A stretch of DNA of 64,000 bases, taken from Syntrophobacterales bacterium. Lineage in GTDB: Bacteria; Desulfobacterota; Desulfobaccia; Desulfobaccales; 0-14-0-80-60-11. The position numbers and the translations under genes are program-made. Positions 1 through 19,525 of this stretch are shown one piece after another. How positions within the stretch are numbered: position 1 is the first letter of the stretch; every line of letters starts with the position of its first letter. The stretch covers positions 18,797 through 82,796 of the forward strand of contig JAGVAH010000071.1 of the NCBI GenBank assembly GCA_020060385.1, written 5' to 3'. Under the pieces are notes generated by a model. The model was not told the origin of the DNA. It did no database searches and saw nothing but the letters and a program-made list of their open reading frames with translations.

Positions 1-521
1 AGCACCAGGATTTTACCAGCCGCCAACTCGTCCGCAGTGAAACCGTAGCCGATATTCCCGTTGTTACCGTTATTCCGCAAGGTGATGATCTGGGTGGCCT
101 GGGACGAGACCCGCATCACCGGCAGGGCCTTGAGGGTGAAGCTGGTGTCGGCCGCGCCCGCCAGGGCATAAATGGCATACCACTGGCTGGCCTTCTCCGT
201 GCCCCAGAGGCTCCCGGAGGTGGCGAAATTCAGCACCAGGGCCGTGGAGTTTTCCCGGTAACGGCCGTCCGCCAGGTTGCCTGAGACCCACTGCCCCGGA
301 TGCATTGGCGAAGGAAAGCCGCACAGCATCAACCGGGCTTTGCAGTCCGCGGTGGCGTTGACCCGGAGATTGGCAGCGTCCACAAATTCCAGGACCGGAG
401 GCAGGGCCAGTTGGAAACCTTCCAGCACCGCGTCTTCAATCTTCTCGAAGTCACTTTTTAAGATGACCTGGCGGCCCGTGCCGCTGCCCCATTTGCTCTG
501 GGGAAGATGGATCAGGGACAT
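1..521 (-). CDS. Partial CDS running off the left edge, phage-cluster-associated protein (MSLIHLPQSKWGSGTGRQVILKSDFEKIEDAVLEGFQLALPPVLEFVDAANLRV...)
   Basis: Hand translation of the reverse complement from ATG at 521; open to base 1. Absent from the ORF track because no stop lies in the window. Co-directional with the tail genes. Confidence 0.7.
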   Translation of the reverse strand, partial: MSLIHLPQSKWGSGTGRQVILKSDFEKIEDAVLEGFQLALPPVLEFVDAANLRVNATADCKARLMLCGFPSPMHPGQWVSGNLADGRYRENSTALVLNFATSGSLWGTEKASQWYAIYALAGAADTSFTLKALPVMRVSSQATQIITLRNNGNNGNIGYGFTADELAAGKILV

Positions 522-631
522 AGGGTATCCTCGCTTAATCTAGAATTTGGGGGGGCCGGGGAAAATAGTGATCAGTGATCAGTGGTTAGTAGACGGAAAA
601 ATCACTGATTACTGAAATTCTCCTCCCCCCA

Positions 632-3600
632 TCAGCCGCAGTAAGCCCGATATTGCCAGTTGGCGTCATAGGAGCTGTTCTGGTCGATGGCGTAGTTATC
701 GTAGTCGGTCCCGGAGGCGTCCACGGCCCAGGAGCCGACCCGGTTCAAGGGCCGGGTTAAAAAGAGGCGGGTGGTGCGGCGTCCCAGGTCCAGGTCTTTG
801 CCGGTAACCGCAAATTCATCCCGGTCCAGGCCGTGGAAGTCCGAAGATACCGCCACCGTATCCCCCAGCTCCATCCTGGCCCCCTCCAGCCAGGTCTCCG
901 CCTCCGCCAGTTCCCAGGGGTTGGCCAGGCGTTGCAGCAGGCGGGTAGCCAGCAACTGCGCGACCTCGGGGTTTTCCAGGACCACCGGCCCGCCATAGCG
1001 GCAATCCAGGTCGATGGCCTGTTCGCCCCAGGCCTCGATGGCCGCGTCGTCCCGGGCTTCGGCGTACTGGCTGTTGTCCTGGTCGTAGTCGGCATAACGC
1101 AGGCGCACCAGGTTCTTGACGCCCTCCAGGTCGTAGCTCAGGGTCAGGGAGCGGATCTGCCCCGGGGCCAGCTCCACCAGGTTATCCAGGAGCAGGAAGC
1201 GGAGCAGGCGCTGGAACCAGTGCCACTCCCCCTGGCGTTTGGCATACTCCAGGGCCGCGCCCAGCATTAACACCACCGCCTCCAGGGAGCCCATCTGGGC
1301 CAGGCACAGGTAGTGGGGGATGTAGTCCCAGACATCCGCGGCCTCGCTGATGGTGAAGGGAATCAGGTCGGCATTGAGGACATTGGGCTTGCCGTCCCCG
1401 GCCTGGCTGAAGGTCCAGGATAGGAGAGCGTCAAAATGGGCCGCATCTTGGGAGGTGGAGGGAAAAGGGTAGGCCTGGCCCGCGGCCCCGTTCACCGCCA
1501 GGCCGAAGGCCTGGAGGACCAGGGCGTTCAGCCAGGCGTAATGGTAATCGCTCTGGTAGCCGCCATAATCCTGGTCTCCCCGGTTTTCCCGGAGATCGTC
1601 CAGGAACCGCCGGGCCCAGATGCCGGCCCGGGCATCGCCGTTACGGAGGTAAACATAGAGGCAGCCCAGAATCAGGGACGCGGCCATGCCCGGGTCATAG
1701 GGGGAATTGGCCAGAAAACCGTATTCAGAGAAGACCTGGGGAAATTGCCAGCCCGGGCCGTCCGCCAGGACAAAAAGATCCAGCCAGTTCAGCCAGTGGT
1801 CCAGGATGGTCCAGGCCTGGGGGTCATTGGTGAGGAAATAATACTGGGCCAGGCGCATGAAGGCCCAATACTGCCCCAGGCCGCAGCCTACCTCCGGGTA
1901 GGCGCTGCCGTTGACCGTGCCCTGGACGATGCCCCAGGCGTTTTCGTGCTCCCCGGCCGGCAACACCCGGCGCTCATACTTTAAGTAATCCAGGGAAAAG
2001 ACCCCGCTGGAGCCGATATTGAGGTAGGCAGTGTTGGTGAGGCCGTTGCCTGCCCCCAGAGCATCGTTCCCCAGGAGGGCGCCGTCTTTGACCTTGTAAA
2101 TTTTGCCCTCTCCCGGCGAGACCATCCAGGTGAGCAGATGCCAGTCGCCGTCCAGGACCCCGGGGATGTCGGAGTAGGAGTCTCCAGCGCTGGTAGTTAC
2201 CTTGAGTTGCAGGGCCGCGCTCCCCGCCTCCTTGGTCTGGACCACCCAGCCGTCCGTTCCCATTTTATCCACCAGCCAGCACCAGCCGCTGCCTTGGGGG
2301 GAACCCTTGATGATCAGGGTCAGGGAAAAGGGGTCCAGACCCGGCTCGAACAGGGAGTTGCTGGCCAGGCTGGCATGGGCCGAGCCGTCGAAACTCACCG
2401 CGGTGTTCCCCGGCTGGCAGACGCCGGGGACGTACGCGGGGCCGCCGTTGCTCCAGCTCAGGGTGTGGCCGTGGCCGGAGGCGTCGGTGAGCCCGCCGTT
2501 GAAAGGCCAGGCCCCGCTTACCAGGCCGTAATGGCGGTACTTGGGCCACCAGGAAAAGCCGGTAAAATCCTCTTCGCCGCACAGGGCGATGTTTTCCACG
2601 TCATTGCGGGTATGCACGGGCATTATGGGGCCTTTGACGCCCCCATAGCGGCTGTGGAATCTATCCTGGGCGTCCCGGTGCAGATTGAGGTAATTCTGGC
2701 TCAGGTTCATGGCCCCCACCAAATAGGGGCCCAGGGGTTGGGCGTAATGCACCAGGGTGGGGCCCCGCCAGGGGTTTTGGCCGTACGGGGTGAGGGAGAT
2801 GGCCAGCCGGGGGGTATAGGGGTAGGGGTCGGCGGCCTCCAGATTCAGGCTGATCTCATCCAGCCACCACTCATGGTCCGGCAGCCCCTGCTGCTCCATC
2901 TTGAATTCCAGGAGCCGCAACCGCTGGGCCCCGGCAAAGGTGAGGTGGTCCCCGAACTTGAGGTCCGTGACATAAAAAGCCCCGTTCGTGGGCGGCGCGG
3001 CCGGGATGCCCAGATCCACCACCTGCAGGGGGTGGGTAAGGGGAGTGGTGCCCCAATCCAGGCCCATTTCCCCCAAGTTCACCGTCACCCGCTGCCAGGA
3101 ATTGACCTGGACGTTCACGTCCTTATAAAAATAACTGTCCTGGGCGTCCTTGACCTTGACCCGCAGATTCAGGGTGTTGGCCCCGGAAACCACCGGCTTG
3201 ATGAGGAAATTGAGGTTGGTCTGCCCGGTGGAATCGCAGCGCTGGGGGTCGATGCCCACCCACGCCCCCCAGGCCGTGGCCTGGGAAGTGAGGTCCCAGG
3301 TGATGAGCCTCTGGGTATAGAAGGTATCTCCCAATAGGACCTGGGTCTCTTCCCAATCACTAATGGTGATGTCGCTGTCATCCGGGGCATAGCCGGAATA
3401 CCAGGCGCCCCACATGCCCCGCACCCGGTCGCCGTCGTCAATGATATTGTCCCGGCGCCAGAACTGGTCAAAGGGGATGTCAAAAGAGGTGGTCTCGGTG
3501 AAGCGGTCCGGCAGGGGGTGCACGAACACATGCTGCGGCCCCCAGGGGTCCTGGTCCAGGGCGCTGGAGTCATTTAAGGACACCAGCAGGCGGCGGGGGT

Positions 3601-4762
3601 GGATGGCCGGGTCTCCTCCCCAAAACTGCCAGTAGTCCCCGGCCACTAAATCAGTGCCGCTGCCGGACTCCCAATAGACCTGGATGCCGCCCCACAGGTC
3701 CACGGGGTGGTCCCGGTCCCCGGTGATTACGCCACTGGCTTCCCAACTCTGTCCTGCGTCCCGGGACCAGCGGCAGGTGGCCTGGCCCACCTCCCCCCCG
3801 TTTTCTATCTGCACCACAAACCTGCGCTTTTCCTGGGGGGTGTAATCTCCGGCAATTACCAGGTTGGCGCTGCCGCTTCCCACTTTCGTGAGATTATGGA
3901 CCCTCCTGGTGCCCCCTGGTCCCCGCAACTTGAGCCGGACCCGGTCGATGGCGTCGAAGGGACTGAGGGTCAGGGACCAATCCAGGCCGTAGCCGCACCA
4001 GGCGGCATCCTGGAGGCTGGGCAATTCCGCCCGGAGATGGAGCTCCCGGGTGGAGGAGCCGGGGGCCTGGGCAATTTCGAAGGCCTGGAAGGCATCCTTG
4101 CCGATGGTGGAGCCCCGGTAAAGCAGATACGCACCCTGGTCCCAGCCCTGGCGCTCAAAAGAGTCAAAGATCAGGGGGGAGGTGCAGCTCTCCTCCCGGG
4201 GGAAAAAGACATCCCAGAGGAATTTAATGTGGGGCTGATAATCCCGGCCTTGCTCCCGCCCCGCCAGGTGCAGGAAGACCATGAGGTCCAGGATGCGGTC
4301 CACCGCGAAATCATAGGTATAGTCATCCTGGGCCCGGTAAGCCCGGCGGATGCAGGGATAGTTGTTCAGGGGCTCATATTTAACTGCGTTTTCGCCGGTT
4401 AGATAGAAATAGTACAGTTGCACCGCAGTGCCCGGGGCCAGGGGGGCGCCCAGGGTAATGACGGTGGTATTCCCCTGGTTGATGAAAGACCCGCCCTGGA
4501 AATAGTTGGTGAGATCCCCGGACAAGGGGTCGGCCCAGAATCCCCCCCAAGGAAACTCGGTCTCCGCCAGCCACACCCCCCGGATCAGGCAGACCTGGCC
4601 GCCCCCGGGATTGGGACTGCCGATGGTGACCTGGCCATTCCCCTGGACCAGGGCGGTGGCGCCGCTCCAGTTCCCCGCCACCGCCTCCTGCAAGGGTGTC
4701 CCCCCCATGTTGTCGAAGACCCAGTTGAACTGGGACGCCCGGGCCCACTGGATACGCGGCAT
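632..4762 (-). CDS. Very large phage tail-tip / baseplate protein (1376 aa) with LamG-like segment
   Basis: Last long ORF of the tail module; contains 'GAWPFNGGLTDASGHGHTLSW...AVSFDGSAHASLAS...FSLTLIIKG...DKMGTDGWVVQTKEAG' typical of concanavalin/LamG folds; C-terminus 'ARMELGDTVAVSSDFHGLDRDEFAVTGKDLDLGRRTTRLFL' resembles tail hub C-termini. Confidence 0.7.
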   Translation of the reverse strand: MPRIQWARASQFNWVFDNMGGTPLQEAVAGNWSGATALVQGNGQVTIGSPNPGGGQVCLIRGVWLAETEFPWGGFWADPLSGDLTNYFQGGSFINQGNTTVITLGAPLAPGTAVQLYYFYLTGENAVKYEPLNNYPCIRRAYRAQDDYTYDFAVDRILDLMVFLHLAGREQGRDYQPHIKFLWDVFFPREESCTSPLIFDSFERQGWDQGAYLLYRGSTIGKDAFQAFEIAQAPGSSTRELHLRAELPSLQDAAWCGYGLDWSLTLSPFDAIDRVRLKLRGPGGTRRVHNLTKVGSGSANLVIAGDYTPQEKRRFVVQIENGGEVGQATCRWSRDAGQSWEASGVITGDRDHPVDLWGGIQVYWESGSGTDLVAGDYWQFWGGDPAIHPRRLLVSLNDSSALDQDPWGPQHVFVHPLPDRFTETTSFDIPFDQFWRRDNIIDDGDRVRGMWGAWYSGYAPDDSDITISDWEETQVLLGDTFYTQRLITWDLTSQATAWGAWVGIDPQRCDSTGQTNLNFLIKPVVSGANTLNLRVKVKDAQDSYFYKDVNVQVNSWQRVTVNLGEMGLDWGTTPLTHPLQVVDLGIPAAPPTNGAFYVTDLKFGDHLTFAGAQRLRLLEFKMEQQGLPDHEWWLDEISLNLEAADPYPYTPRLAISLTPYGQNPWRGPTLVHYAQPLGPYLVGAMNLSQNYLNLHRDAQDRFHSRYGGVKGPIMPVHTRNDVENIALCGEEDFTGFSWWPKYRHYGLVSGAWPFNGGLTDASGHGHTLSWSNGGPAYVPGVCQPGNTAVSFDGSAHASLASNSLFEPGLDPFSLTLIIKGSPQGSGWCWLVDKMGTDGWVVQTKEAGSAALQLKVTTSAGDSYSDIPGVLDGDWHLLTWMVSPGEGKIYKVKDGALLGNDALGAGNGLTNTAYLNIGSSGVFSLDYLKYERRVLPAGEHENAWGIVQGTVNGSAYPEVGCGLGQYWAFMRLAQYYFLTNDPQAWTILDHWLNWLDLFVLADGPGWQFPQVFSEYGFLANSPYDPGMAASLILGCLYVYLRNGDARAGIWARRFLDDLRENRGDQDYGGYQSDYHYAWLNALVLQAFGLAVNGAAGQAYPFPSTSQDAAHFDALLSWTFSQAGDGKPNVLNADLIPFTISEAADVWDYIPHYLCLAQMGSLEAVVLMLGAALEYAKRQGEWHWFQRLLRFLLLDNLVELAPGQIRSLTLSYDLEGVKNLVRLRYADYDQDNSQYAEARDDAAIEAWGEQAIDLDCRYGGPVVLENPEVAQLLATRLLQRLANPWELAEAETWLEGARMELGDTVAVSSDFHGLDRDEFAVTGKDLDLGRRTTRLFLTRPLNRVGSWAVDASGTDYDNYAIDQNSSYDANWQYRAYCG

Positions 4763-4840: not shown

Positions 4841-6523
4841 TTATTCTTCTCCCAAATAGGCCTTGATTCTGATCTCTCCGAAATCCACCCAGAGGTCGTA
4901 GAGGCAGCGTTGCAGGATTTCCCGGAGGGCCTGGGCCGCGGTCACATTCTCAAAGCACACGCCGATGGCGTAGCTGGGGGTGAGGCTCTTGGCCAGGTCA
5001 AAGGTTTCCTGCTGCCTGGCCCCACTCAGACCCACCGCGGCCAGGATGTCGCTAATGATTGCCACCGGGTGGGTGGTGGCGTCCTTTACCACCCGGGCCT
5101 CCACCTGCCCGGAGCGGCCGGTGACGGTGATTAGCCCCGTTTCCGGATCTGCCGCCACCCGGTCCTGGGTCGCGGCGCGGTTCAGGTAGATCGCGGTGAT
5201 GGCGGCAAAGGGGCCGCCGTAGACCTGGTAGTGGTAGACCCGCGGCTGGGCGGTGAAGGTCCATTGATCCCCGTCCACCAGGTCCGTGCCGGTGCCGGAC
5301 TCCCAATACACCGCCAGGCCCTCTTCCAGCTCCACCGGGTTTTCGGGGCCGGCGGTAGTCACGCCCGTCTCCCGCCAGCTCTGCCCCTGGTTCACGGACC
5401 AGCGGCAGGAGGCCGCGCCCACCTCCCCGCTGTTTTCCACCCGCAGCAGGTAATCCCGGACATATTCACCAAGGTAAGTGCCGGTCACCTTGAGGACCGC
5501 ACTGCCGGAGCCGTTTTTCACCGGCTCCCCCACCTGGGCGGCAATGGTCTCCGTCAGTTCCGCGCCGGCCCGGTAAGGGCCCCGCATAAAAGGCTGCCTC
5601 ACCCCCTCCAGGGAGGGAGCCCCCAGAAAGGTTTGCAGCCGGGCCGCCACCCAATCCCGGCTTTCCAGTTGCACCCGGTGTTCCCCACTCCAGGCGTGGG
5701 CCATCCCGGAGAGGCGCTCCAGCTCCCCTTGGTAGGCCAACTGCCACTCCACCCGGCCGCTGGAGAGTTCCCAGCCATGATAGAGGGCCAGCCTCTTTTG
5801 CCTCCAGGGCAGGCCCAGGAGATAAAAATTTTCCGCGCCTGCCAGCCACTGCCCCCGGCGGTTGTCCAGCAGCAGGGTATGGTCGCCGACCCGCAGCTCG
5901 CTGAAATCCCGGGCCAGGTCCACCCGCACCGCGCCGGGGTCCAGAACCTCTCCTTCAGGCAGACTCAGGCGGCCTTCCAAGGAGAGATTGGCCAGATAAC
6001 CGGGAGAAACGCCCTCCGCGCAGTAACCCTCATACCCCCCGTCCGGGGCTTGGTCTGGGGCATGGGCCGTGAATTCATCCGCGTCTTCCCCGGCATCCAC
6101 GGCCCAGTACCTCAGGGTTTCCGTGAACTCCACCTTTACCTGAAAATAGGGGAGCAGAGCGTATTCTTCCCCCTGGCTCATGGACAGATAAGAGGCGCTG
6201 CCGACTTCCCCGGCGCTGGCCGCGGTTCTAAAAGACACCTGGGCTTCCATCTGTGCGGCCTGGTCATCCCAGGAGGCGTTCACCAGATTGAGATAAGGGG
6301 AATAAGTGTGCAAAACCGGGGAAGTCCAGGACGCGGTGGTGAAATAACCTGACGCCAACACCAGTTTCCCCGCCTCGCCCCCATAGGCCGTATGGGTAAA
6401 TTCCCCGGAACCGGCAGCCAACCCGTAGTCCAGGTCAAAGGGATACAGAACCGCCTTCACCCGGGGCCTGGCCCCCCGATCGCGGGTTTCCTCCTGGAGA
6501 TATTCGCCGCTGGTAGTTCTCAT
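4841..6523 (-). CDS. Phage tail hub/baseplate-like protein (560 aa)
   Basis: Position between distal tail-like ORF and the 1376-aa ORF; shares a ~80-aa module with the latter. Confidence 0.6.
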   Translation of the reverse strand: MRTTSGEYLQEETRDRGARPRVKAVLYPFDLDYGLAAGSGEFTHTAYGGEAGKLVLASGYFTTASWTSPVLHTYSPYLNLVNASWDDQAAQMEAQVSFRTAASAGEVGSASYLSMSQGEEYALLPYFQVKVEFTETLRYWAVDAGEDADEFTAHAPDQAPDGGYEGYCAEGVSPGYLANLSLEGRLSLPEGEVLDPGAVRVDLARDFSELRVGDHTLLLDNRRGQWLAGAENFYLLGLPWRQKRLALYHGWELSSGRVEWQLAYQGELERLSGMAHAWSGEHRVQLESRDWVAARLQTFLGAPSLEGVRQPFMRGPYRAGAELTETIAAQVGEPVKNGSGSAVLKVTGTYLGEYVRDYLLRVENSGEVGAASCRWSVNQGQSWRETGVTTAGPENPVELEEGLAVYWESGTGTDLVDGDQWTFTAQPRVYHYQVYGGPFAAITAIYLNRAATQDRVAADPETGLITVTGRSGQVEARVVKDATTHPVAIISDILAAVGLSGARQQETFDLAKSLTPSYAIGVCFENVTAAQALREILQRCLYDLWVDFGEIRIKAYLGEE

Positions 6524-6642: not shown

Positions 6643-7008
6643 TCAAATCTCTTCCAGGACCATGCTCCCGCTCCACGCACCCGGCGCGACTTCCCGGAAG
6701 TCCAGGTCGCTGGTCCAGGCCCCGGTAAAGGTTTTGGCCCCCGTCGCGTCCCGATAAAAATCGATGTCCACTTGGGCCTGTTTGATGGCCGTGAACTGGT
6801 CCTTCTGGGCCGCGGAGATATACTGGAACTTCAGAACCCAGCGTTGCTTCAGGCCCCGGGAATAGCTCCTCAAGGTGCCGTCCAGGGCCCGTTCCCGGTC
6901 GGTTTCATCCTGGACCAGTTCCTGGTAATCCCGGGAGAAGTTGACCGGCAGGGTGTAGCTTTGGCGGCTGCCCCCCACCGGGGTCCATTCCATTTTGGCG
7001 TTGGCCAT
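6643..7008 (-). CDS. Small phage distal-tail-like protein (121 aa)
   Basis: Position directly after the tape measure; sequence MANAKMEWTPVGGSRQSYTLPVNFSRDYQELVQDETDRERALDGTLRSY... Confidence 0.5.
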   Translation of the reverse strand: MANAKMEWTPVGGSRQSYTLPVNFSRDYQELVQDETDRERALDGTLRSYSRGLKQRWVLKFQYISAAQKDQFTAIKQAQVDIDFYRDATGAKTFTGAWTSDLDFREVAPGAWSGSMVLEEI

Positions 7009-7018: not shown

Positions 7019-7783
7019 TTACCAGCGGCGGTCCGCGTCTTTCTGGAGCAAGGGGAGGATGTGGCGCTGCACCAAACGGCCCCAGTCCAGGCGGCTTACC
7101 CCTTGGGCATCCAGGCTCTGCACCTGGATGGAGATGTCATAGCGGGGAGCGGTTCCCGGAGACGAGAGGTCGAACCTACCTGACCTCAGGGCTTCGAAAT
7201 TTTTCTCCCCTATCCGGGCCATGGTCTCCCGGGGCAGGATGCCCTCCCCGGTTTGGGCCAGGATCAATTGTTCCTCGCTGCCCCTGGCCCCCGGAGGGAC
7301 AGCCAGCCCCTGGTGGGCGGAGACGATGCCCCCCTGGTGGAACAGGCCGCCGAAACTCAGGCCGCCTGCCAGCCAGGAGAGCCAGCCGCCCCCATCCCCT
7401 CCGCCCCAGAAGCCCAACCAGGACTGCCCCGCTTTCTCCAGGGTCTGGATAAAATTCTCACACCAATCCTCCAGATCGCTGGAAATCTCCCCCAGGGCAT
7501 TTCCCATACTCTGGCGCAAAGAGCTGCCCGTGGCCTCCCCCTGGGCCGCCAGGTCCGCGAAACTGGCCTGGGCCAGGCCGGACATCTGATCCAGGGAACC
7601 TTGCCACTCCCGGGAGAACGCGGCCCAACTCTCCTGCATCTGCTGCATCTCGTTATTCCAGACGGCTAGGCGACTGCGGCTGTACTCCTGGCTGAGACTG
7701 AGCATCTCTTCCTGCCCGGTCCGGAAAGCCGCCAATTCCTTGGCGGTATATCCTGTATCAGATCTGTCTCTGGGCATTTTCAC
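7019..7783 (-). CDS. Short tail tape-measure-like protein (254 aa)
   Basis: Helical N-terminus, Gly/Trp-rich middle, C-terminal 'FHQGGIVSAHQG...EEQLILAQTGEGILPRETMARIGEKNFEALRSG' typical of lambda-like tape-measure C-termini. Confidence 0.65.
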   Translation of the reverse strand: MKMPRDRSDTGYTAKELAAFRTGQEEMLSLSQEYSRSRLAVWNNEMQQMQESWAAFSREWQGSLDQMSGLAQASFADLAAQGEATGSSLRQSMGNALGEISSDLEDWCENFIQTLEKAGQSWLGFWGGGDGGGWLSWLAGGLSFGGLFHQGGIVSAHQGLAVPPGARGSEEQLILAQTGEGILPRETMARIGEKNFEALRSGRFDLSSPGTAPRYDISIQVQSLDAQGVSRLDWGRLVQRHILPLLQKDADRRW

Positions 7784-8114
7784 CTCCCTGGCCCCCTGTC
7801 AGGATCCGCCTCACGACCCCCAACAGCAGCCAGGTTTCCAGGCTCAAGTCATTGGCCCGGAAGGGGTAGCCCGCCTGGCGGAGGCGGTGCAGAAATAGGA
7901 GGTGCCAGGTCCAGGGGGAGAGACTTTCCGGACGGAGGTACTCCTCACACACTTCACAGGCCCAGGCCGCGAAAGCGCCATTCTGGGCGCGGCAGCGGCG
8001 GCGTTCCCCGGGTCCGCAGAGCCGGCCCTGGGCCACTGCCTGCAAATCCCGGGGCAACGGCCAGTCTGCCAGCAGGGCTCTCCCTGACCCAGCTATATCC
8101 TCTAACCCGAACAT
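7758..8114 (-). CDS. Probable tail assembly protein (118 aa)
   Basis: Sits between tail tube and tape measure; overlaps the upstream ORF by 13 nt in the -1 frame. Confidence 0.45.
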   Translation of the reverse strand: MFGLEDIAGSGRALLADWPLPRDLQAVAQGRLCGPGERRRCRAQNGAFAAWACEVCEEYLRPESLSPWTWHLLFLHRLRQAGYPFRANDLSLETWLLLGVVRRILTGGQGGENAQRQI

Positions 8115-8488
8115 TCCTGATCCTCCCGGGACACCACCCGCAGGCCTTCAAAGATCTGCTGGGCCAGGTAGGAGACCAGGTCCGGGGCGTGCTGCCGCAG
8201 CCGCTCCTGCCAATCGGGGTGGCGCTCCGGGTCCAGGGGCGTCTCCTCGCCATTGACCGTGACCAGGAAGTCCCCCGGGCCGAACCCGGTGAGAATCTCC
8301 AGCCCGAACCTGAGGCGGGTCTCCCCCAGGCAGAAGCGGCGCTGCCCCCCTTCCAGGCGGAAGGCCGACACTTGATAAGCCACCCGCTCCTCGGAAGTGG
8401 GCCGCCGGTAATATAAGGTCACCTCCGACCCCGACACCGGATCATGCACCATTAGAGAGTGTCTATCTTCCCCTAGGACCCTGGGCAT
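8102..8488 (-). CDS. Probable tail assembly chaperone (128 aa)
   Basis: Position directly downstream of the tail tube-like ORF. Confidence 0.45.
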   Translation of the reverse strand: MPRVLGEDRHSLMVHDPVSGSEVTLYYRRPTSEERVAYQVSAFRLEGGQRRFCLGETRLRFGLEILTGFGPGDFLVTVNGEETPLDPERHPDWQERLRQHAPDLVSYLAQQIFEGLRVVSREDQECSG

Positions 8489-8592: not shown

Positions 8593-9891
8593 CTAAGCCG
8601 CGTAACCGCTCACCTTATTCTGCACCCGGGCGATGACGGAGCCGTAGGTGTCGTCTTCCAGGACCGCGAATTCCACTTCTTCCCCCAGGCGGCGCTGGGA
8701 GACCTTTACCGGTGCGGACAAGACCGCCACCCGGGGAAAGATCAACTCCACCTGGTAATTGAGTCCCGACTCGAACTCCGGCCCCAGGGCCAGGAGGTGG
8801 ATTGCCAGGGTGTCGTTGTCCCGGAGATGTTGGGCCAGGAGAAAATCCCGGAAGTCCCGGTCGAATTCCAGTTTCTGCTCCCGCCCGGACCTAAAGACCC
8901 GGTTGGCGTAAGTTACGCCTGCTCCCGGAGTGCGTTCCGGAGTCAGGTTGTTGGTGCAGGTCCAACTCAGGCGGCGCAGTTCCGCGGCCCACTGGTATCC
9001 CCCCAAGATGGCGCTGCCGTCCCAGCGTCCCCCTATATTCACGGCCACCTGGCTCACCTTCAGGGGCGGCTCTTCCACCCGGGAAGGAAACAGCATCCAG
9101 CCGCTCTCCGGGGGCAGGTAATAAACCCTAAAAGTGGTAGCCGTGGCGCTGCTCCCCGGCGGGGTAATGGTGATCACCGCCGGCGCAGCCCCGGAGACCG
9201 CGCTGTAGGCCACCTCTTCCCAGGCCTGGCTCTCCGGGTTGAGCACCTGCACGGCCTGGAGGTTGCTCAATCTCTCGGCCGCGGTGTCCCCGGCCACGCC
9301 GTGGGCCGCCAGGGTCAGGGAGCCGGCATTGAAGGCTGCGGAGATGTCCTCCACCTCCGTGTTGTCGCTGATTTTGCCGGTGCCCTTTACCGTGGCGCTG
9401 ATCTTGGCCCAGCCGTCTTTGGGGAACTCAGCCTTGACCTGATCCAGGAAGCAGGAGGCAAAGCGCCGTTTCAGCACCTGGCGGCCAAAGCGCATGGCCG
9501 CGGTGAAACTGGGGTTGGACCGGGCCGGGTCCACTTCCCCGGACCGGGGTTGGAGGAGGTGGCGATAGCCGCTGCTCCCCTGGGCGGTGGTTTGCACCTG
9601 GCCCAGGGCATAGGCCAGCAGGAAGGCGAAATGCTGGGGCTGCGCCCGGGAGAAGGTGAGGGTGCCTTTCACGGTCCCCCCCAAATCATAGACGCGGTCC
9701 GCCTCCTCCTTGCCGGTCATCTCCTCCCGGTTGGCAGCCTTCAGACCCCGGTAATTGAGGAGGCTGCTCAGATCCGCCAGCAGCAGGGTGTCCAGTTCCT
9801 GTTCGGAGTTAATTGCGGTTTCCTGGTGCTGCGCCGAGACTGCCAACAGATTGTGGGTGGCCAGAAAGTTCCGGATGGACCGGGTCATCAT
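8593..9891 (-). CDS. Phage tail tube-like protein (432 aa)
   Basis: Synteny (after gp37-like ORF, before chaperones) and beta-rich sequence. Confidence 0.5.
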   Translation of the reverse strand: MMTRSIRNFLATHNLLAVSAQHQETAINSEQELDTLLLADLSSLLNYRGLKAANREEMTGKEEADRVYDLGGTVKGTLTFSRAQPQHFAFLLAYALGQVQTTAQGSSGYRHLLQPRSGEVDPARSNPSFTAAMRFGRQVLKRRFASCFLDQVKAEFPKDGWAKISATVKGTGKISDNTEVEDISAAFNAGSLTLAAHGVAGDTAAERLSNLQAVQVLNPESQAWEEVAYSAVSGAAPAVITITPPGSSATATTFRVYYLPPESGWMLFPSRVEEPPLKVSQVAVNIGGRWDGSAILGGYQWAAELRRLSWTCTNNLTPERTPGAGVTYANRVFRSGREQKLEFDRDFRDFLLAQHLRDNDTLAIHLLALGPEFESGLNYQVELIFPRVAVLSAPVKVSQRRLGEEVEFAVLEDDTYGSVIARVQNKVSGYAA

Positions 9892-10486: not shown

Positions 10487-10495
10487 CTCCAGGGG

Positions 10496-10933
10496 CTACC
10501 ACTCTCCCAGGGTGCGCCGGGAGAAAAGGCGGGGGTTGCTGTCCATCTCCGGGGCTTCCCGGGCCGCAGCGGGGGGCTCGCCGCCGCTGCCCGCCAGGGT
10601 TGCCTGGCCCCCGGCCACTTGTTTCAGGAAGGCCAGGGCGTCCCTGTACTTCTGCTGCCAGACCTCCGGGGCGACACTGCGCCGGCTGTAAAGATGGTAA
10701 AGGGCCAGGTCCGCGGACAGGGTCTTCACCCGCTCCGGCACCGGCGCCAGGGGCACGGTATAACGCAGGCCGCAGGCCGCGTCGATTTCCGCGTCCGCCC
10801 GGCTGATGGCCTCCGCCACCACCTGGGCGTCGGGGACCTCCCCGGACTCCGCGGTCAAGGCCGCCAGTTCGGCCTGGGAAATCATGGCGAGCAGATCGTC
10901 TTGGGTTGCATAGGCCATTACTTCTTCTCCCAA
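10496..10933 (-). CDS. Mu gp36-like (DUF1320-type) head-tail connector
   Basis: MAYATQDDLLAMISQAELAALTAESG...VAEAISRADAEIDAACGLRYTVPLAPVPERVKTLSADLALYHLY is a characteristic gp36 pattern; probable start is the internal MAYATQ. Confidence 0.75.
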   Translation of the reverse strand: MGEEVMAYATQDDLLAMISQAELAALTAESGEVPDAQVVAEAISRADAEIDAACGLRYTVPLAPVPERVKTLSADLALYHLYSRRSVAPEVWQQKYRDALAFLKQVAGGQATLAGSGGEPPAAAREAPEMDSNPRLFSRRTLGEW

Positions 10934-10962: not shown

Positions 10963-11304
10963 CTAAGCCGTGATGGCCCGCTCAATGCTCACCGCCAGGT
11001 CGCCGCTCTTTTCCACGGTGACCGGGGCCGCGCCCGGAAAGATGACCTTCAACTCCCCCACATAAGGCCCGGGAGTCTGATTGGTATCGGTGTCCCCAAG
11101 AAATACGGAGACGATGCCCTGGCCTGCCTGGCCCAGGTTAAAATCGTCATGTTCTTTCGAGAAGACGTAATTTTCCCCTTTGGGCGCCTTTACCCCCAGG
11201 AAAAAGGTGCATCCGTCCAGATTCACGGCCGCGCCGCTCGTATCGGTCACCGTCAGAGTGAGCAGCTTGGCCTCCCCTTGTTTGAGGGTGATGGTCTCAG
11301 CCAT
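10963..11304 (-). CDS. Phage structural protein, BppU-like/upper baseplate-like (113 aa)
   Basis: MAETITLKQGEAKLLTLTVTDTSGAAVNLDGCTFFLGVK...; co-directional within cluster. Confidence 0.4.
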   Translation of the reverse strand: MAETITLKQGEAKLLTLTVTDTSGAAVNLDGCTFFLGVKAPKGENYVFSKEHDDFNLGQAGQGIVSVFLGDTDTNQTPGPYVGELKVIFPGAAPVTVEKSGDLAVSIERAITA

Positions 11305-11584
11305 TGGCAGTCACCTGCAATCTGCGAATTTGGGGAGCTACAGATAAATGGCGGGTATTGACACTCAGAACCAATTTTTGGGGAATCAAAAGACACCAAA
11401 GGGTCCCTAATACCTCTCCTGACGTAATATTCCCCACTCCCTGAATCGTCACCGGCCCAGGATTGATCGTGGGCATTCCCAGGGCCGTGGCACTGGGAAG
11501 AGCGCCGACCCCCAGAAGATATTGGGGATCCACCCCATAAAGCAGCCCGTTGCCAAAGATCTCCCCAGTTCCGAATTTACCCAT
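11297..11584 (-). CDS. Hypothetical phage-cluster protein (95 aa)
   Basis: Open frame overlapping its neighbour by a few nt, co-directional. Confidence 0.45.
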   Translation of the reverse strand: MGKFGTGEIFGNGLLYGVDPQYLLGVGALPSATALGMPTINPGPVTIQGVGNITSGEVLGTLWCLLIPQKLVLSVNTRHLSVAPQIRRLQVTANG

Positions 11585-11801
11585 GTGTATCCTCTGATAG
11601 CCGGGAGCTTCCCTCGCTGCTGAGTAGCTGGTTCAATTCCTGCTGACAGCTCTGCCGCCACTGTGTTAAAAGCTGCACCTGGAAATCGATCCGGGTGATT
11701 CGCTCTTTTAGCAGCTCACAGGTCAAGTCTTTGATCTGCCCGCTTAATTGCTCAATATGCTGATCCTGGTCTCTATTCCCGGTAGCCTTGGGGGGCATCA
11801 T
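11577..11801 (-). CDS. Hypothetical coiled-coil phage-cluster protein (74 aa)
   Basis: Heptad-like sequence QHIEQLSGQIKDLTCELLKERITRIDFQVQLLTQWRQSCQQELNQLL. Confidence 0.45.
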   Translation of the reverse strand: MMPPKATGNRDQDQHIEQLSGQIKDLTCELLKERITRIDFQVQLLTQWRQSCQQELNQLLSSEGSSRLSEDTHG

Positions 11802-11808
11802 CTGTTTC

Positions 11809-12852
11809 CTAACTTAAGGATATTGACGCGGTCTTCACGGTGCCGTCATTCTGTTTGGCCTTAAACATGACTTTGGCCGCGCCATTGGTCTTGTCAAACC
11901 ACCAGGCGCATTCCCCCGCGGCCAAATCCCCATCTGCCGGGGCCGAATTGAGGGTGTTAAAAATACCGATTCCCCGGAGATAGCCGTTCACCTCCAATTT
12001 TTTGCCCGGGCTCGTTGTGCCGATGCCGACGTTGCCGCTGTTATCAATCGTTACTGCTTGGTTTGAACCCGTGGTGCCAAGCCAAAAAGGCAGACTATTA
12101 GCCCCCCGGAGGTAACCTCCTGTGACGGCAGTTCCATCCGCCCTATATCCGCCAATGACATAGCCGTATCCAGACCTGCCGAGATAAAACAGAGGATGTT
12201 CTCCTGCCGTCACTGAGGCATCTTCCAGGCTTAACCGGTATATTGGACTTGTTGTGCCGATGCCGACATTGCCCGCCGCATCCACGGTCACCGCCTCGGG
12301 GCTGCCGTCTGAGGCCCAGAGTTTGCTATGCTTGTGGCCGGGGTCCTGGGCCCCAATCCACTCATCATAACGCACCGCCTCCCCGGTCCCGGAGGCCGCG
12401 GCCAACCCTGTAAACTTATGACTATTCATGGCGATATTGCCGGCCATGGTGCCCCCGGCCAGGGGCAACATCAGATCCACATAGGCTTTCCGGGCCAACT
12501 GATTGCCGGTGGTGGGATTGTTGGCAGGACCCAAAGGTATGCTGGTGAAGGTCTTGACCCCGGCGATGCTCTGATCCCCGCTCTTGGCCACTAAGCCCGC
12601 GGCCTCCGCGGTTCCCGGGATCCAAGCTCCTGCCGCCTTATAAAACACATCCCCATCATTACCGCCAGTAAAGGACCCGGCGGTGTGTTTATGACCAGGG
12701 TTGATGCTGCCTGTATTTTTCAATAGATAGTCGAGGGAGGTCACCACTGCGGAGTTGTCTATTCCCACTTTGGCTTCCAGGTTGTTGAGATGGGCGGCCA
12801 CAATTTCCGTAACGCCGTCAACGGCATTGCTTAATTCTGCTGGGAAAGACAT
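11809..12852 (-). CDS. Phage tail fibre-like protein with repeated GNVGIGTTSP motif
   Basis: Repeated 'VDAAGNVGIGTTSP' / 'IDNSGNVGIGTTSP'; 'PLAGGTMAGNIAMNSHKFTGLAAA' tail-fibre signature. Confidence 0.8.
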   Translation of the reverse strand: MSFPAELSNAVDGVTEIVAAHLNNLEAKVGIDNSAVVTSLDYLLKNTGSINPGHKHTAGSFTGGNDGDVFYKAAGAWIPGTAEAAGLVAKSGDQSIAGVKTFTSIPLGPANNPTTGNQLARKAYVDLMLPLAGGTMAGNIAMNSHKFTGLAAASGTGEAVRYDEWIGAQDPGHKHSKLWASDGSPEAVTVDAAGNVGIGTTSPIYRLSLEDASVTAGEHPLFYLGRSGYGYVIGGYRADGTAVTGGYLRGANSLPFWLGTTGSNQAVTIDNSGNVGIGTTSPGKKLEVNGYLRGIGIFNTLNSAPADGDLAAGECAWWFDKTNGAAKVMFKAKQNDGTVKTASISLS

Positions 12853-12867
12853 GGTAGAGGAGCCCCC

Positions 12868-13275
12868 TTACAGCTTGAAGATTTTGTTGGCCCCATCATC
12901 CCAGGCCACGTTGATATCCCCGCCGTTGGGGGTTACCGGCAGACCGGTGGCGGTGTCGATATAAGCGATGAGCCGGGAGGTGCTCTCAGAGCCGGTGTCC
13001 TGATAAATCACCAGGGCCTCTACGGGGTCGCCGCTCACTGCGGCAAAGGTGAAATCCGCGGCGTCGGCCACCCCAGCGGCCGCCGTCTTACTGGTGAACC
13101 CGTCGCTGGTGGCCACCCGCGCGGCTGTGGGGATATCGCTCAGAAATTGGTGGGTGGCCAGGTTGACGGTGTAGTCCGCGGCATCAATGAGCACCGCCTT
13201 GACCACGTCCGTATCCCAATGGATCTGGCCCGTCAGGAAACCTTCCCGGCCTTTATCGTATAAGGCATTGGCCAT
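12868..13275 (-). CDS. Phage structural protein (135 aa)
   Basis: MANALYDKGREGFLTGQIHWDTDVVKAVLIDAADYTVNLATHQFLSDI pattern common in phage minor structural proteins. Confidence 0.6.
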   Translation of the reverse strand: MANALYDKGREGFLTGQIHWDTDVVKAVLIDAADYTVNLATHQFLSDIPTAARVATSDGFTSKTAAAGVADAADFTFAAVSGDPVEALVIYQDTGSESTSRLIAYIDTATGLPVTPNGGDINVAWDDGANKIFKL

Positions 13276-14253: not shown

Positions 14254-14661
14254 TTACCTGGCGATGTCGATCCAGCCCTTGGTGGCGGACCCGTACTTGA
14301 CCAAAACCCCAACTTTGATGTCATTGGTGGGGCCGGCCGCGTCATCGAAGGTGTGGTCGTCCACCGCATACATGGGATCGCCCACCATGGCCTGGGTGAT
14401 GCTGGTGGCGTCGAATTCAAATATGCCGTGCCGCCGCACCCGCACGCTCTTGGCCCCATTCGCGCCCCCGGTGTTGTCCACCTGTTCCAGGGCCACGCCC
14501 ACCAGGCGGTAGCCGCTGGTATCGGCCGCAGGCGCGGCAAAGCCGTTGGCGTTGGCGCACACCAGGGAACCCGCGTAGATTTTCACGGCCGCGGCCACGG
14601 AGTAAGCCACTTCGATGCCTTCCCGGTAGGGTGTGGCCCGGTCTTTAGTCAGCGCTGCCAT
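14254..14661 (-). CDS. Capsid decoration-like protein (135 aa)
   Basis: Position between protease and capsid genes; sequence like DUF2190-type decoration proteins. Confidence 0.5.
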   Translation of the reverse strand: MAALTKDRATPYREGIEVAYSVAAAVKIYAGSLVCANANGFAAPAADTSGYRLVGVALEQVDNTGGANGAKSVRVRRHGIFEFDATSITQAMVGDPMYAVDDHTFDDAAGPTNDIKVGVLVKYGSATKGWIDIAR

Positions 14662-14679
14662 AATTTCTCACCTCCCCAT

Positions 14680-15693
14680 TTAATGGGCCCGGTCGGTCCG
14701 GGCCTTGGCTTGAAGATATTGCTCCGGGGCAAGATTCAGGGAGCGGCAGAGGGCCAGTTCTTCCGGCTGCAGATGGCCCGGAGCCTGGAGGTCCTGCCGC
14801 ACCTTCAGTTCCATCCTGGTGGGCACCAGTTGGGGGGCCCGGGCCACAAAGGTCTGGAAGCCCCCGGGGTCCTGGCGGTAATATTCCAGGGCCCAGGATT
14901 TCTGGGCCGGCGCGATCTTGCCCGCCTTCATGGCCTCTTCCACAACCCGGGCCGTGGTCTCGGCCGCGGCCTGGGATTTTTGGGTGCGCAGCTCCTCCTC
15001 CACCCCTTGGAGCCGGTCCACTTCCATCTGTAGGGCCTTGACAGCTTGCAGAATTTGGGAGGCTGTAGCCTCCTCCGGCAGCTTCAAGGTGGCGGCCAGG
15101 CTCTGCCAGACCTCCAGGACCTTGCCCCAGAGGGTCTGCTCATCCATCTCCGGGGGCAAGCCCATGATCAATTTGAGTTTTTCCACTTCCCCACCCTTTC
15201 TGGTCTTTTTTTCTTGAGTGATGCGTTGCGGCACTGCCACCGCTTCCTTTTCCCCCGGCCGCGCCGGCGCCTCCCATTTGGCCACCAGGGGCGGCAGCCG
15301 TTTGATGGCCGGCACGTTGGTCAACCCCACCTGCAACAGGGCCCGGGGTTTACGGCTCTCCGGGTCCAGTTGCAGCACCGGGGAAAAATAGCGGTACTCC
15401 CGGTTGCGTAAATACTCCCGGGCCTGGGGGGTCCACTCCACCCGGGCCCAGAGACCGTCGGTTCGGGCCTCCAGGTCCTTGATCCAGCCCGCGGCCGGGG
15501 CGGGCCTGCCTTGCAGGGATTGATGTTCATAGTCGATGACCAGATCCACGCCCCGGGAGCGGAAGGCCCCCACCAGTGCAGCCAGGGACTCCGGGTCCAG
15601 TTGCAGGGGGTCCGGCCGGTCCACCAGCTCCACCCGGCCCGCGGGGAGTAAAAGAATCCAGTCTGGCAAGGAATCAATTTCCTGATTTTTCAT
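14680..15693 (-). CDS. Mu I-like protease/scaffold protein
   Basis: LLPAGRVELVDRPDPLQLDPESLAALVGAFRSRGVDLVIDYEHQSLQG...EYRYFSPVLQLD...VGLTNVPAIKRL is the Mu I N-terminal pattern; coiled-coil C-terminal scaffold. Confidence 0.85.
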   Translation of the reverse strand: MKNQEIDSLPDWILLLPAGRVELVDRPDPLQLDPESLAALVGAFRSRGVDLVIDYEHQSLQGRPAPAAGWIKDLEARTDGLWARVEWTPQAREYLRNREYRYFSPVLQLDPESRKPRALLQVGLTNVPAIKRLPPLVAKWEAPARPGEKEAVAVPQRITQEKKTRKGGEVEKLKLIMGLPPEMDEQTLWGKVLEVWQSLAATLKLPEEATASQILQAVKALQMEVDRLQGVEEELRTQKSQAAAETTARVVEEAMKAGKIAPAQKSWALEYYRQDPGGFQTFVARAPQLVPTRMELKVRQDLQAPGHLQPEELALCRSLNLAPEQYLQAKARTDRAH

Positions 15694-15828: not shown

Positions 15829-16158
15829 TTAATCGCCCGGGGCTGCGGCTGCCTTCACCCCCGCCTCCTGGGCCAGGGCCTTGGCCTCCCGGGCCTGCAA
15901 CTGCAACTGCTCGGTCTGCCCCGGGTCCGGACACCATTGGTGTTGCAGCTCCCCGGCCACCATCAGGGCGGTATCCGCGGCCACCACCGCCCGCCGCAAT
16001 TGGTCATTATTTTGCCATTCCTCCTGGAGCAGCGGCGTGTAGTAGCCCTGCACCGTGTCCAGGGATTGCTGCACCTTCTGGAACAGGCCGGGTTGCTGAC
16101 AACAACCGGCCATGAGGGTCAGGATCAGGCCCAGAGCCCCCAAACTTTTACCCATCAC
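15829..16158 (-). CDS. Small lipoprotein (109 aa) inside the head module
   Basis: Lipobox MMGKSLGALGLILTLMAGCC followed by helical region. Confidence 0.6.
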   Translation of the reverse strand: MMGKSLGALGLILTLMAGCCQQPGLFQKVQQSLDTVQGYYTPLLQEEWQNNDQLRRAVVAADTALMVAGELQHQWCPDPGQTEQLQLQAREAKALAQEAGVKAAAAPGD

Positions 16159-17468
16159 TTGCCTCCTTTCCTAGTTTGGTTCTCCCCGTCCCGGGGCAGG
16201 GGGATGCCGAAGCGCTCCGCCACCTGGTCCCCCCGCAGGGGCACGCCGATTTCCTTTAAATTACGGTAGACTTCGGACAGGGCCTTGAGGTCTTCTTCTT
16301 CCGCCAGTTTGAAGCGGAACCAGGGACAGGGCCGGTCCCAGCCGAAATTGAAGCCCACCAGGGGCCGGAGCAACTGTTCCCGCAGGGTCACCGCCAGGGT
16401 CTGGGCGTCGGCCTCCACCAGGTCCCGGCGCACCTGGGCGTGGACCCGGGCCGCGCTGTAGGTGCCGGTGGCCCCCGCGGTGTCGGTGGTCAGGGTCTGC
16501 CCCAAAATCGCCTTGGACATCTCCCGGTTGCAAAACTCCGCCAACACCTGGTAGGGATTGGCATTGCCGGAGAGCCGGGACGCGGCCTCCACGAATTCGA
16601 TCTCCGTGCTTTTGCTGATGATCCCCGCGGCGTCGGAGCCCAGGCTGCGGATGGCCCGGACCAGAGCCTCCCGGTCCGCGGCCGAGGCCGTGGGGTCGTA
16701 TTTCCCCAGGCGCAGGGGCATGCCGAAGACTTCATTGAACGCGGCCCAATCCTTCAGCGCGTAATTCTTCAGGAGATACATCCAGGCCACCACCCGGAGC
16801 ACCCCGGCCCGGGGCGCGTGGCCGCTCCGGGCCTTGAACCGGTGGTAGATCACTTTCCAGGGGGGCGGTTCCTCTCCCTGCCAGGGGGCCCCCGGGGTGA
16901 GGAGCCGGGGTTTCAAGTCCTGGATAAAGGTCACCCGCTTCTGGGGCAGCCACCTGAGTTCCATGACCCGGGCCTGGCCTCCTGCCACCTCCCAGATGAT
17001 TTCTGAGAGGGCAAAGCCCTTGCCGATGGCGTCCAACAGATCCAGGAGGGCCCCCTCGAAGTCCGGCAGGGCGTCCAGCACATCCTGGACAAAGGCGGCG
17101 ATGCGCTCATCCTCCCGGGTCTTGGCATAGGGCAGCAATTCGTAGTCCAGGCTCAACACCGCCATCTTCCGGGTCTGGAGCAGGGAGGCCAGGTGCGCGT
17201 CCTTTTCTTCCATTTCCTCGAACAGCTCCATCTGCCGGTGGACGTCCCCCTGGTCCGCCAGGCGGAAGATTTCCGCCAGCCGCTCCGGGGTAAGCCCGGC
17301 GCTGGGATAGGTGCTCCAGCGTTCCGCCAGGCTGACTGCGGCCAGCTCCCGGGTCTCCGGCTTGGCCTGGGGTTTAAAGACCCTGCCGAATAAATCCTTC
17401 AGCCCCATTTTTTCTCCTGTTAGCAGTAGGGTGGGCATTGCCCACCGATTCCTTGGAGCAGCCAGCAA
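16155..17468 (-). CDS. Portal protein, Mu gp29-like (DUF935)
   Basis: DAHLASLLQTRKMAVLSLDYEL...GKGFALSEIIWEVAGG...VFGMPLRLGKYDPTASAADREALVRAIRSLGSDAAGIISKSTEIEFVEA...ILGQTLTTD. Confidence 0.85.
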   Translation of the reverse strand: MLAAPRNRWAMPTLLLTGEKMGLKDLFGRVFKPQAKPETRELAAVSLAERWSTYPSAGLTPERLAEIFRLADQGDVHRQMELFEEMEEKDAHLASLLQTRKMAVLSLDYELLPYAKTREDERIAAFVQDVLDALPDFEGALLDLLDAIGKGFALSEIIWEVAGGQARVMELRWLPQKRVTFIQDLKPRLLTPGAPWQGEEPPPWKVIYHRFKARSGHAPRAGVLRVVAWMYLLKNYALKDWAAFNEVFGMPLRLGKYDPTASAADREALVRAIRSLGSDAAGIISKSTEIEFVEAASRLSGNANPYQVLAEFCNREMSKAILGQTLTTDTAGATGTYSAARVHAQVRRDLVEADAQTLAVTLREQLLRPLVGFNFGWDRPCPWFRFKLAEEEDLKALSEVYRNLKEIGVPLRGDQVAERFGIPLPRDGENQTRKGGK

Positions 17469-17499
17469 CTGCTCACTGCTTACTGCTCACTGCTCACTT

Positions 17500-19071
17500 T
17501 TAAAACGCCCCCCGGCCCTGGAATCGCCGGGAGTCCAGGGAAAGATACGGCTCTTCCACCGCCACTCCCGGCATTGCCTGGGCCAGGCGGATGGCCCCCT
17601 CCAGGGCGTCCGGCCCGTCGTCGTGCAGGGTCCGGGAAGGGAAGTAGAGCAACTGCTCCACCAGCAGTTCCTGGTCCGAGTGGCCCCGGATGAAGCGGAT
17701 TTTGCCCCGCTCCAGCAAGGGAGAGAGACTGGCCACCCGGGTCTCCTTGGCCAGGCGGCTGGTCACCCCCTTGACGGGGAGCAGTTGGCCCCGTTCCTGG
17801 CCCAGGCGCTCAAACTCTTTGAGGAGCAGGCGCTGGAAGAGGTTGTCCTCCACCCCGAAGACCAGGTAGCCGTATTCCTGGTGCCGGTTGAAGATGGCCC
17901 CCAGGGTCTGTTCCAGGGTGGTCTTCTGGATGAAGGCGTCCATCACGTAGAACATCATCTCCCGGCGGTCCCAGCCCACGGTGACGCAGGCCTTGTAATC
18001 CGCCGCGGCCCCGCTTTCCAAAGAAGGGTCGAAAAACCCCACCACCACCAGGTCCCGGTCCTTCAGGCTGTCCGGGTGGTAGTAGTGAATCCACTCCTCC
18101 TTGAAAAACCCGGATTCCGGCACGGGTTCGTTCATCTTTTCCCGGTTGAAGGCCAGAGAACCCATCATTTGCTTCTGCTGGGCCAGCCTGGCCGCGGGAT
18201 GCCGGGCCTCCCAGAGGGAGGTGCCGTCTTCTTTAACCGCCCGGTAGATGCGCCGCTGAAAATGGCAATAGGGCTCCTCCGGGCTGGTGAGCAGCAGATG
18301 CAGGGCGCTTTTCCACCTGAGGATGGTGCCGATGATCATCAGGGTGCCCCGGGCGTCGATGGCCGGGTAGACCGCGGATTTGACCCAATCCAGGATCTGC
18401 TGCACGATCTCCGGGTTGCGGACGTTGACGTCGTTTTCCAGGTCGTCCAGGATCACCAGGTCCGGCCGCCACTGCCGGTGCTTCAGCCCCCGGAGGCGCT
18501 GGCCCCGGCCCCGGGCCTTCACCCGGATGTCATTGGCGGTGACGAAGTCATCCACCGCCCGGTTGGCCTTGACCAGTTGCCCGAAATCCTGGTGCAGCCT
18601 CTCGTTGTAAAGGAGTTCCAGATAGAGGTAACCCGTCAAATCGCTGGCCAGGTCGTCGCTGTCGCTGCCGATGAGGATGAAATGCCGCCGGCCGAAGCAG
18701 ATTTGGTGCAGCACGTAGCCAAAGGTGCAGACCGTGGTCTTGGCGAATTCCCGGGGCGCGGCCACCGCCACCGGCTTGACCACCTCCGCCCCCCGCTCCT
18801 CCAGGAAGCCCACCAGCTCGTAGTGAAAGGGCGCGGGGGCCTTGTCGAAGTAGTGGGGCAGATACTGGCGGCAGAAATAGAGGGGATCGGCCGCGGCCCG
18901 GTGCAGCCGCCGGTCCCGGTCTTCTTCCCGGTCTTCCCGGAACGGCGTCACCTCCAGGGTCAGACGCATCAGGATCTTATCGGCCCGCTGGCGGAACTCC
19001 GCGTTGGTGAGCTTCTTCTTTAAGGTCATGGCGTCTTTGGTCTTGCTTGGCCGGTTATCCATCATTTTCAA
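17500..19071 (-). CDS. Phage terminase large subunit (Mu gp28-like)
   Basis: APREFAKTTVCTFGYVLHQICFG, LVILDDLENDVNVRN, nuclease-like GFFDPSLESGAAADYKACVTVGWD. Confidence 0.85.
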   Translation of the reverse strand: MKMMDNRPSKTKDAMTLKKKLTNAEFRQRADKILMRLTLEVTPFREDREEDRDRRLHRAAADPLYFCRQYLPHYFDKAPAPFHYELVGFLEERGAEVVKPVAVAAPREFAKTTVCTFGYVLHQICFGRRHFILIGSDSDDLASDLTGYLYLELLYNERLHQDFGQLVKANRAVDDFVTANDIRVKARGRGQRLRGLKHRQWRPDLVILDDLENDVNVRNPEIVQQILDWVKSAVYPAIDARGTLMIIGTILRWKSALHLLLTSPEEPYCHFQRRIYRAVKEDGTSLWEARHPAARLAQQKQMMGSLAFNREKMNEPVPESGFFKEEWIHYYHPDSLKDRDLVVVGFFDPSLESGAAADYKACVTVGWDRREMMFYVMDAFIQKTTLEQTLGAIFNRHQEYGYLVFGVEDNLFQRLLLKEFERLGQERGQLLPVKGVTSRLAKETRVASLSPLLERGKIRFIRGHSDQELLVEQLLYFPSRTLHDDGPDALEGAIRLAQAMPGVAVEEPYLSLDSRRFQGRGAF

Positions 19072-19525
19072 GGTTCCGGAAAAAATCCTGGATGCGGGCG
19101 GTAAAGATCTTCAATTCCTCTGCATCCTTCACCCAGCCCCGCAAAAATTCGCTGAACCGGTCCATCACCTCCAGGGCCGCGCCCCTAAGGTCAAACCCCC
19201 GGGAGCAGAGGCGGTCGATGAGGGTGAGAATCTTGGTGAGTTCGTCCAACTCCGGGGTCTTCAGTTCCCCTTTCACCAGGAGCCTGCCGGTCTTTTCCCG
19301 GAGCAGGCCCTTCAGGGCCTCCCCCAGCCACCTGGGGGAGACCAGCACTTGCCGCCGCTTTTCCTCCCAATGGCCTTCCCGCTCCCAGCGTTGGAGAGTA
19401 GAGAGGGCCACGGGGAACAATCTCTGAATCTCCTCCAGGCCTTTGCCTGCCAGATAAAGGGATTGGGCTTCATCAAAGTAGAGGTCCCTCTTGCCGCTCT
19501 TGGCTTTCTTGCGGTTGGCCGTCAT
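19055..19525 (-). CDS. Small terminase-like protein (156 aa)
   Basis: N-terminal HTH (YLAGKGLEEIQRLFPVALSTLQRWEREGHWEEKRRQVL), overlaps start of large terminase. Confidence 0.6.
   Translation of the reverse strand: MTANRKKAKSGKRDLYFDEAQSLYLAGKGLEEIQRLFPVALSTLQRWEREGHWEEKRRQVLVSPRWLGEALKGLLREKTGRLLVKGELKTPELDELTKILTLIDRLCSRGFDLRGAALEVMDRFSEFLRGWVKDAEELKIFTARIQDFFRNLENDG

Follow-up and report, generated by a model that had tools for sequence, protein, structure and literature searches.

What a compact set of phage particle genes is doing in a bacterial chromosome is the question raised by the stretch of DNA analysed here (the window: 64,000 nucleotides, G000:C142:18,797-82,796 of a 4.15-Mb assembly; host order Desulfobaccales). 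Its positions 1-19,525 are an unbroken minus-strand gene run with terS at the 19,525 end. The initial annotation had proposed a domesticated, gene transfer agent (GTA)-like or tailocin-like particle, and had allowed that missing functions may sit upstream. According to the results presented below the locus probably represents a domesticated Mu-like siphophage, which most likely works as a GTA.

The contig extends 18.8 kb to the left of the window, and the end of the cluster was reached there, followed by livF. The complete one-strand cluster covers about 20.6 kb (C142:17,757-38,321) between livF and ftsH-folP. The missing functions were not found upstream: only tip, holin-like and membrane genes lie left of the window before livF. 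On the right flank the response regulator and ftsH genes follow the cluster as described before, and folP is next. Genes for an integrase, transposase, replication, repressor or recognisable endolysin, which had not been visible in the window, are missing from the complete locus as well, and neither flank contains an integrase or transposase. The Mu transposase C-domain (PF09299) had zero matches in the whole 4.15-Mb genome and was present in 2 of the 29 genomes of the order. A transposase or integrase on the left, att sites and a sporadic presence had been named as the findings that would speak against domestication; what was found is a housekeeping operon on the left and an order-wide presence.

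Features of the cluster and its regulatory region. Positions are those of the window unless the contig (C142) is named.
Feature	Position	Strand	Evidence and conservation
87-aa membrane/coiled-coil gene	C142:~17,757-18,022, beyond the window		livF next
53-aa holin-like gene	C142:~18,102-18,260, beyond the window		Pfam 0.018, below cut-off
351-aa tip/tail-end protein	C142:18,262-19,317; N-terminal half = window 3..521	-	351 aa in 6/6 genomes with complete gene, 58-79% identity
1,376-aa tip protein	632..4762	-	By position; weak laminin-G/lectin-like match; 46-77% identity, 1,375-1,392 aa where complete
560-aa probable hub/baseplate protein	4841..6523	-	By position; 529-562 aa in 13 genomes
121-aa probable distal tail protein	6643..7008	-	By position; 119-121 aa in 14 genomes
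Shortened tape measure, 254 aa	7019..7783	-	PHROG 339/24, C-terminal match
Two small overlapping genes (118 + 128 aa), tail-chaperone position	7758..8488	-	Conserved; homologues equally placed in related prophages
432-aa probable tail tube protein	8593..9891	-	By position; PHROG 290; 430-433 aa in 17 genomes
Mu gp37-like and gp36-like head-tail connectors	10040..10933	-	Pfam/PHROG; gp36 4e-33, gp37 2e-21
Variable block: 113-, 95-, 74-aa genes, 347-aa fibre, 135-aa gene	10963..13275	-	Omega 0.20-0.42, cluster maximum
gpT-type major capsid protein, 298 aa	13342..14238	-	PF10124 3e-110; JBD30-type capsid in PDB 3e-62
135-aa virion (probable decoration) protein	14254..14661	-	PHROG 1731
Mu-like I protease/scaffold	14680..15693	-	PF10123 9e-70
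109-aa lipoprotein-like gene	15829..16158	-	Fills the place of gpF + gpG in related phages
Mu-type portal	16155..17468	-	PF06074 1e-107
Large terminase (TerL)	17500..19071	-	PHROG 38 6e-95
Small terminase (TerS), HTH N-terminus	19055..19525	-	155-161 aa in 22 genomes
Promoter dyad CCAGGTGTGCTGG(AG), then TATACC	19560..19574	-	Pattern CCAG-N5-CTGG
HTH-A, 57-aa AlpA/HTH_17 regulator upstream of terS	19731..19904	-	HTH_17 2e-10, AlpA 1e-5
HTH-B, 63-aa divergent AlpA-type regulator	20619..20810	+	42% identical to HTH-A

The phage head and tail genes named in the initial annotation are present, as seen from Pfam and PHROG matches, the tip, hub and distal tail being assigned by position. The Pfam families of the portal, protease, capsid and connectors are of Mu type. 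The motifs of TerL are near-invariant in 22 sequences (Walker A-like APREFAK, Walker B LDD, nuclease DPS/EDN/DDGPDAL), and a PDB search with the TerL sequence gave no match. The tape measure was matched to PHROG 339 at 6e-7, with only the C-terminal part of the 1,123-position profile aligned. For the 1,376-aa, 560-aa and 121-aa proteins no family was found above the cut-off, and the 1,376-aa tip protein had no match among 50,697 phage records. PDB profile searches with the 560-aa and 432-aa proteins returned nothing meaningful; their AlphaFold models reached mean pLDDT values of 54.7 and 45.8, respectively, and fold searches gave no usable match. No second gene of the cluster could be a sheath gene. 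The block between the capsid and gp36 differs by genus, with fibres in G000 and larger inserts in some other genera, and a holin-like pair lies inside it in G007, G009, G010, G012 and G015.

The cluster, scored by the presence of a capsid and/or TerL of this type (for G021, from part of a capsid and pieces of TerL), was detected in 26 of the 29 Desulfobaccales genomes, the exceptions being G017, G020 and G026. Thirty genomes of the phylum's other families were searched for a gpT capsid of this type, with no match. The 432-aa tail tube protein was matched in 9 of 297 phylum genomes, 8 of which belong to Desulfobaccales; the single match among the about 288 sampled genomes outside the order (G187) lies on a contig of an ordinary Mu-like prophage with Gam, M15 peptidase and gp27. 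The position of the cluster could be read only where the contigs reach past the site, and in the remaining cluster genomes they break earlier. The ftsH-folP site is common to 16 genomes of both families (G000, G002, G004, G007, G008, G010, G013, G015, G018, G019, G022, G023, G024, G025, G028 and, counted with them, G005, the contig of which ends at the response-regulator gene), and in three genomes (G011, G012, G027) the cluster is at another location. In two of the genomes that lack it, G017 and G020, part of the tip gene (54-55% identity) and HTH genes remain at the ancestral place.

The descent of the cluster was followed with a tree of nine concatenated proteins (TerS, TerL, portal, 135-aa virion protein, capsid, gp36 and the 432-, 128- and 121-aa tail proteins), which was compared with a tree of the host genes pheT and ftsH from 26 genomes, ftsH being linked to the cluster and pheT lying on another contig in most of them. 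The two trees had 20 of 23 bipartitions in common, while 2,000 label shuffles gave a mean of 0.19 and a maximum of 3; the three conflicting host branches had supports of about 55-62. The patristic distances of cluster and host were correlated at 0.91. Within genus, and with few genomes behind some genes, the median dS values obtained by the Nei-Gojobori method overlapped between the cluster genes (0.42-1.18) and the neighbouring host genes (0.54-0.92). The cross-genome comparison suggested in the initial annotation showed, besides the conserved position, omega values of 0.07-0.42 for the cluster genes, the lowest among the well-sampled ones belonging to the capsid (0.089), TerS (0.128) and TerL (0.14). 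Gene lengths were constant across the complete copies, and the portal frame of G002 is open for 417 codons. Domestication, already proposed before, is well supported by the order-wide presence and by the common site in both families, and domestication with vertical descent can be regarded as very likely.

The capsid shows a partly different history. In a capsid-only tree the clusters were intermixed with the own prophages of Desulfobaccales, and the capsids of genus g11 branched apart; judged from this sequence placement, the g11 capsid was probably exchanged. In G023, G025 and G028 the capsid identity was 52-53%, below the 65-72% of the portal, TerL or tube. Since it falls under the value predicted by these three proteins, the capsid module (capsid and 135-aa genes) of G023, G025 and G028 was probably exchanged too.

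Comparison with related prophages revealed a reduced gene set. The tape measure of the cluster is 246-271 aa wherever it is readable (13 genomes), versus 708-2,071 aa in the related prophages. These carry gpF- and gpG-like genes (named by position and by eye) between portal and protease, in the place where the cluster has the 109-aa gene, and the gpF family is sporadic in the order (11 of 29 genomes). A same-genus prophage-like locus (G002:C3:60,594-78,258) has a tape measure of 1,007 aa and tip genes homologous to those of the cluster (52-67%); a neighbouring gene resembles, by eye, a DNA adenine methyltransferase. In JBD30 the tape measure has 1,158 residues and the tail a length of 180 nm (PMC11445458), and scaled from these values the 254-aa protein predicts a tail of about 39 nm; the tail of RcGTA measures 49 nm (PMC7296036).

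Between terS and ftsH two small regulator genes, HTH-A and HTH-B, were found, both of which were absent from the first reading of the window. They adjoin the cluster across the order, the relocated copies included, and HTH-B is kept at both loss sites (G017, G020), HTH-A at one. In 16 genomes, drawn from both families, the dyad and a TATA-like box precede terS by 46-51 nt; combined with its -10-like box, the dyad occurs as a single copy in the 4.15-Mb genome of G000. It may be the site on which HTH-A or HTH-B acts. In many of the genomes the cluster is adjoined by a gene for a response regulator with fused TPRs (window 20,966-22,186), the TPR part of which shows little conservation beyond the genus.

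These data would be explained as follows. A transposable siphophage of the Mu-like kind would have entered the common ancestor of Desulfobaccales and lost the capacity for movement and replication, after which it would have been inherited with the chromosome, its function held by selection. The divergent HTH-A/HTH-B pair would govern the single promoter with the dyad ahead of terS. TerS and TerL would cut DNA and pack it through the portal into the gpT head, the packed DNA being host DNA and not the locus itself, and the particles would be released by lysis. The short non-contractile tail, ending in the 560-aa, 1,376-aa and 351-aa proteins, would dock on a related cell, to which the DNA would be delivered.

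The best guess for the ancestor is a transposable siphophage of the kind of Pseudomonas JBD30/D3112 and Rhodobacter RC1/RS1. The cluster shares with them the Mu-type portal, protease and gp36/gp37, and its gpT capsid resembles theirs (JBD30-type 3e-62, RC1 45% identity), but their genes for transposition, replication and lysis, their gpF/gpG and their long tape measure are lacking. The parallel with RcGTA drawn in the initial annotation holds for the compact order, the very short tape measure and the large tip protein; as to kinship it is an analogy only, the parent being of Mu type. Like RcGTA and the RcGTA-like GTAs (Alphaproteobacteria, Rhodogtaviriformidae), the locus is a vertically inherited head-tail cluster with a terminase pair, which co-diverges with its host under purifying selection and has no replication or integration genes. 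In contrast, a Mu-type portal, protease, gpT head and connectors replace the RcGTA set, the candidate regulators are others, no peptidoglycan peptidase could be recognised in the cluster, and the low-carbon signature is absent. The Dd1 GTA has been reported in Desulfovibrio desulfuricans, likewise a sulfate reducer of the former Deltaproteobacteria; the likeness is one of description, not of sequence. Brachyspira VSH-1/BhGTA and Bartonella BaGTA, likened in the same manner to the particle predicted here, are domesticated phage particles with host DNA that form separate, independently exapted groups, and within Brachyspira the homologues of BhGTA are not syntenic (PMC9662315).

For the class assignment the GTA features listed in PMC9662315 were used, three of the six being found from the genes alone and the other three concerning head size, the DNA packed and delivery. 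The particle proteins derive from tailed phages (terminase, portal, protease, capsid, connectors, tape measure), the locus is fully endogenised (livF and ftsH-folP flanks without integrase or transposase, at a site common to both families), and inheritance is mostly vertical, with co-diversification with the host and some exchange of the capsid module. Low-carbon protein composition has been reported for alphaproteobacterial GTAs. This signature was not seen here in comparison with phage relatives (capsid 5.01 versus 4.98, portal 5.02 versus 4.96 and protease 4.93 versus 4.67 carbons per residue; raw values, uncorrected for host GC). From the feature list and the absent low-carbon signature, the locus would therefore be GTA-like of independent origin, outside the RcGTA family. 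GTA-like appears to be the best functional reading of the gene set, and a function as GTA is reasonably probable. The capsid exchange, the three relocated clusters, the losses in Desulfobacca and the lack of an endolysin in the locus count against it. Genomes of 36-40 kb fit into the gpT heads of Mu-like phages, so that an ordinarily sized head could have room for the complete 20.6-kb locus.

As to the wider claim, we lean towards an order-wide, independently evolved GTA lineage outside Alphaproteobacteria, with a Mu-like siphophage origin, a two-gene AlpA-type switch on one dyad promoter and a derived tail-tube-less form in Desulfobacca. The sequence-based case for an independent origin consists of the order-wide presence, the common position, the tree congruence and the shortened tape measure. 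Outside Alphaproteobacteria, GTAs are not easily recognised from sequence, and how common they are has yet to be settled (PMC11841831); no report of a GTA or prophage in Desulfobacca or Desulfobaccales was found in the open-licence literature. With this locus, the phages that may have been domesticated by their hosts come to include a Mu-type parent, and the targets it offers are a host genus that is in culture, a single promoter, a pair of candidate regulators and a particle predicted to have a short tail. If DNA transfer is true, Desulfobaccales own a built-in route of gene exchange.

A domesticated particle may also have another job, as a tailocin-like killer or as a carrier of protein or nucleic acid that does not serve gene transfer, and the Desulfobacca branch bears on this. 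The 432-aa tube gene was missing in all four genomes of Desulfobacca (genus g10), the genome-wide search of G022 and G026 covering this gene alone. Neither the G024 locus nor the G027 contig yielded chaperone or tape-measure genes, and in G024 (presumed D. acetoxidans) the 560-aa gene comes directly after gp37 (263 aa). The head, portal, TerL and tip are kept in the Desulfobacca-type cluster, and the retention of head and tip without a tail tube, together with the large tip and fibre genes and a GTA function that is predicted from gene content, leaves some room for such a job. However, tailocins lose their heads and terminase, whereas the capsid, portal and terminase are all intact here; TerL, portal, protease and capsid are retained under purifying selection, and a sheath gene is absent. 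Intact head and packaging genes, together with a Desulfobacca cluster that keeps its head after losing the tail tube, disfavour the tailocin-like alternative of the initial annotation, and another job of the particle is on the whole unlikely. The G024 cluster (G024:C1:~1,686,400-1,706,000) also has a 975-aa protein ahead of the connectors and two HTH-A copies, and no TerS homologue was found in it.

The three relocated copies bring both HTH genes along and related prophages co-occur in some genomes, as would fit a satellite-like element mobilised by the related Mu-like prophages of the order and still moving occasionally. Such an element is quite improbable: the cluster brings a full set of packaging and head genes of its own and lacks a recombinase, and its movement is rare, as judged by the tree and by the conservation of the site. 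An ordinary or decaying Mu-like prophage sitting here by chance, suggested by the Mu-type head genes and by the true relatives of such phages in the order, is largely refuted and very improbable, the transposase, integrase, Gam and the early/replication module being absent from the locus and its flanks the genes being intact with low omega, and the cluster being present in 26 of 29 genomes, at a common site in both families and with congruent trees.

Besides the domesticated, GTA-like locus itself, some minor observations were made. The 7-bp-period arrays (units ACTGATC, TTACTGA, ACTGCTC, AGTGAGC and AAAACAG), considered in the initial annotation as a sign of long residence, occur in intergenic regions both within the cluster (6,589; 8,543; 17,468) and elsewhere (54,123; L002:18,061); they were regarded as weak evidence of age and were not used for it. 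In genus g3 (G008:C46) a second TerL/TerS set, 56-57% identical, follows the cluster's own capsid, and is either a related phage that inserted there or a head module in tandem. Chromosomal cluster DNA has also been filed as virus in IMG/VR, since contig 3300020074_000159 has the capsid of G008.
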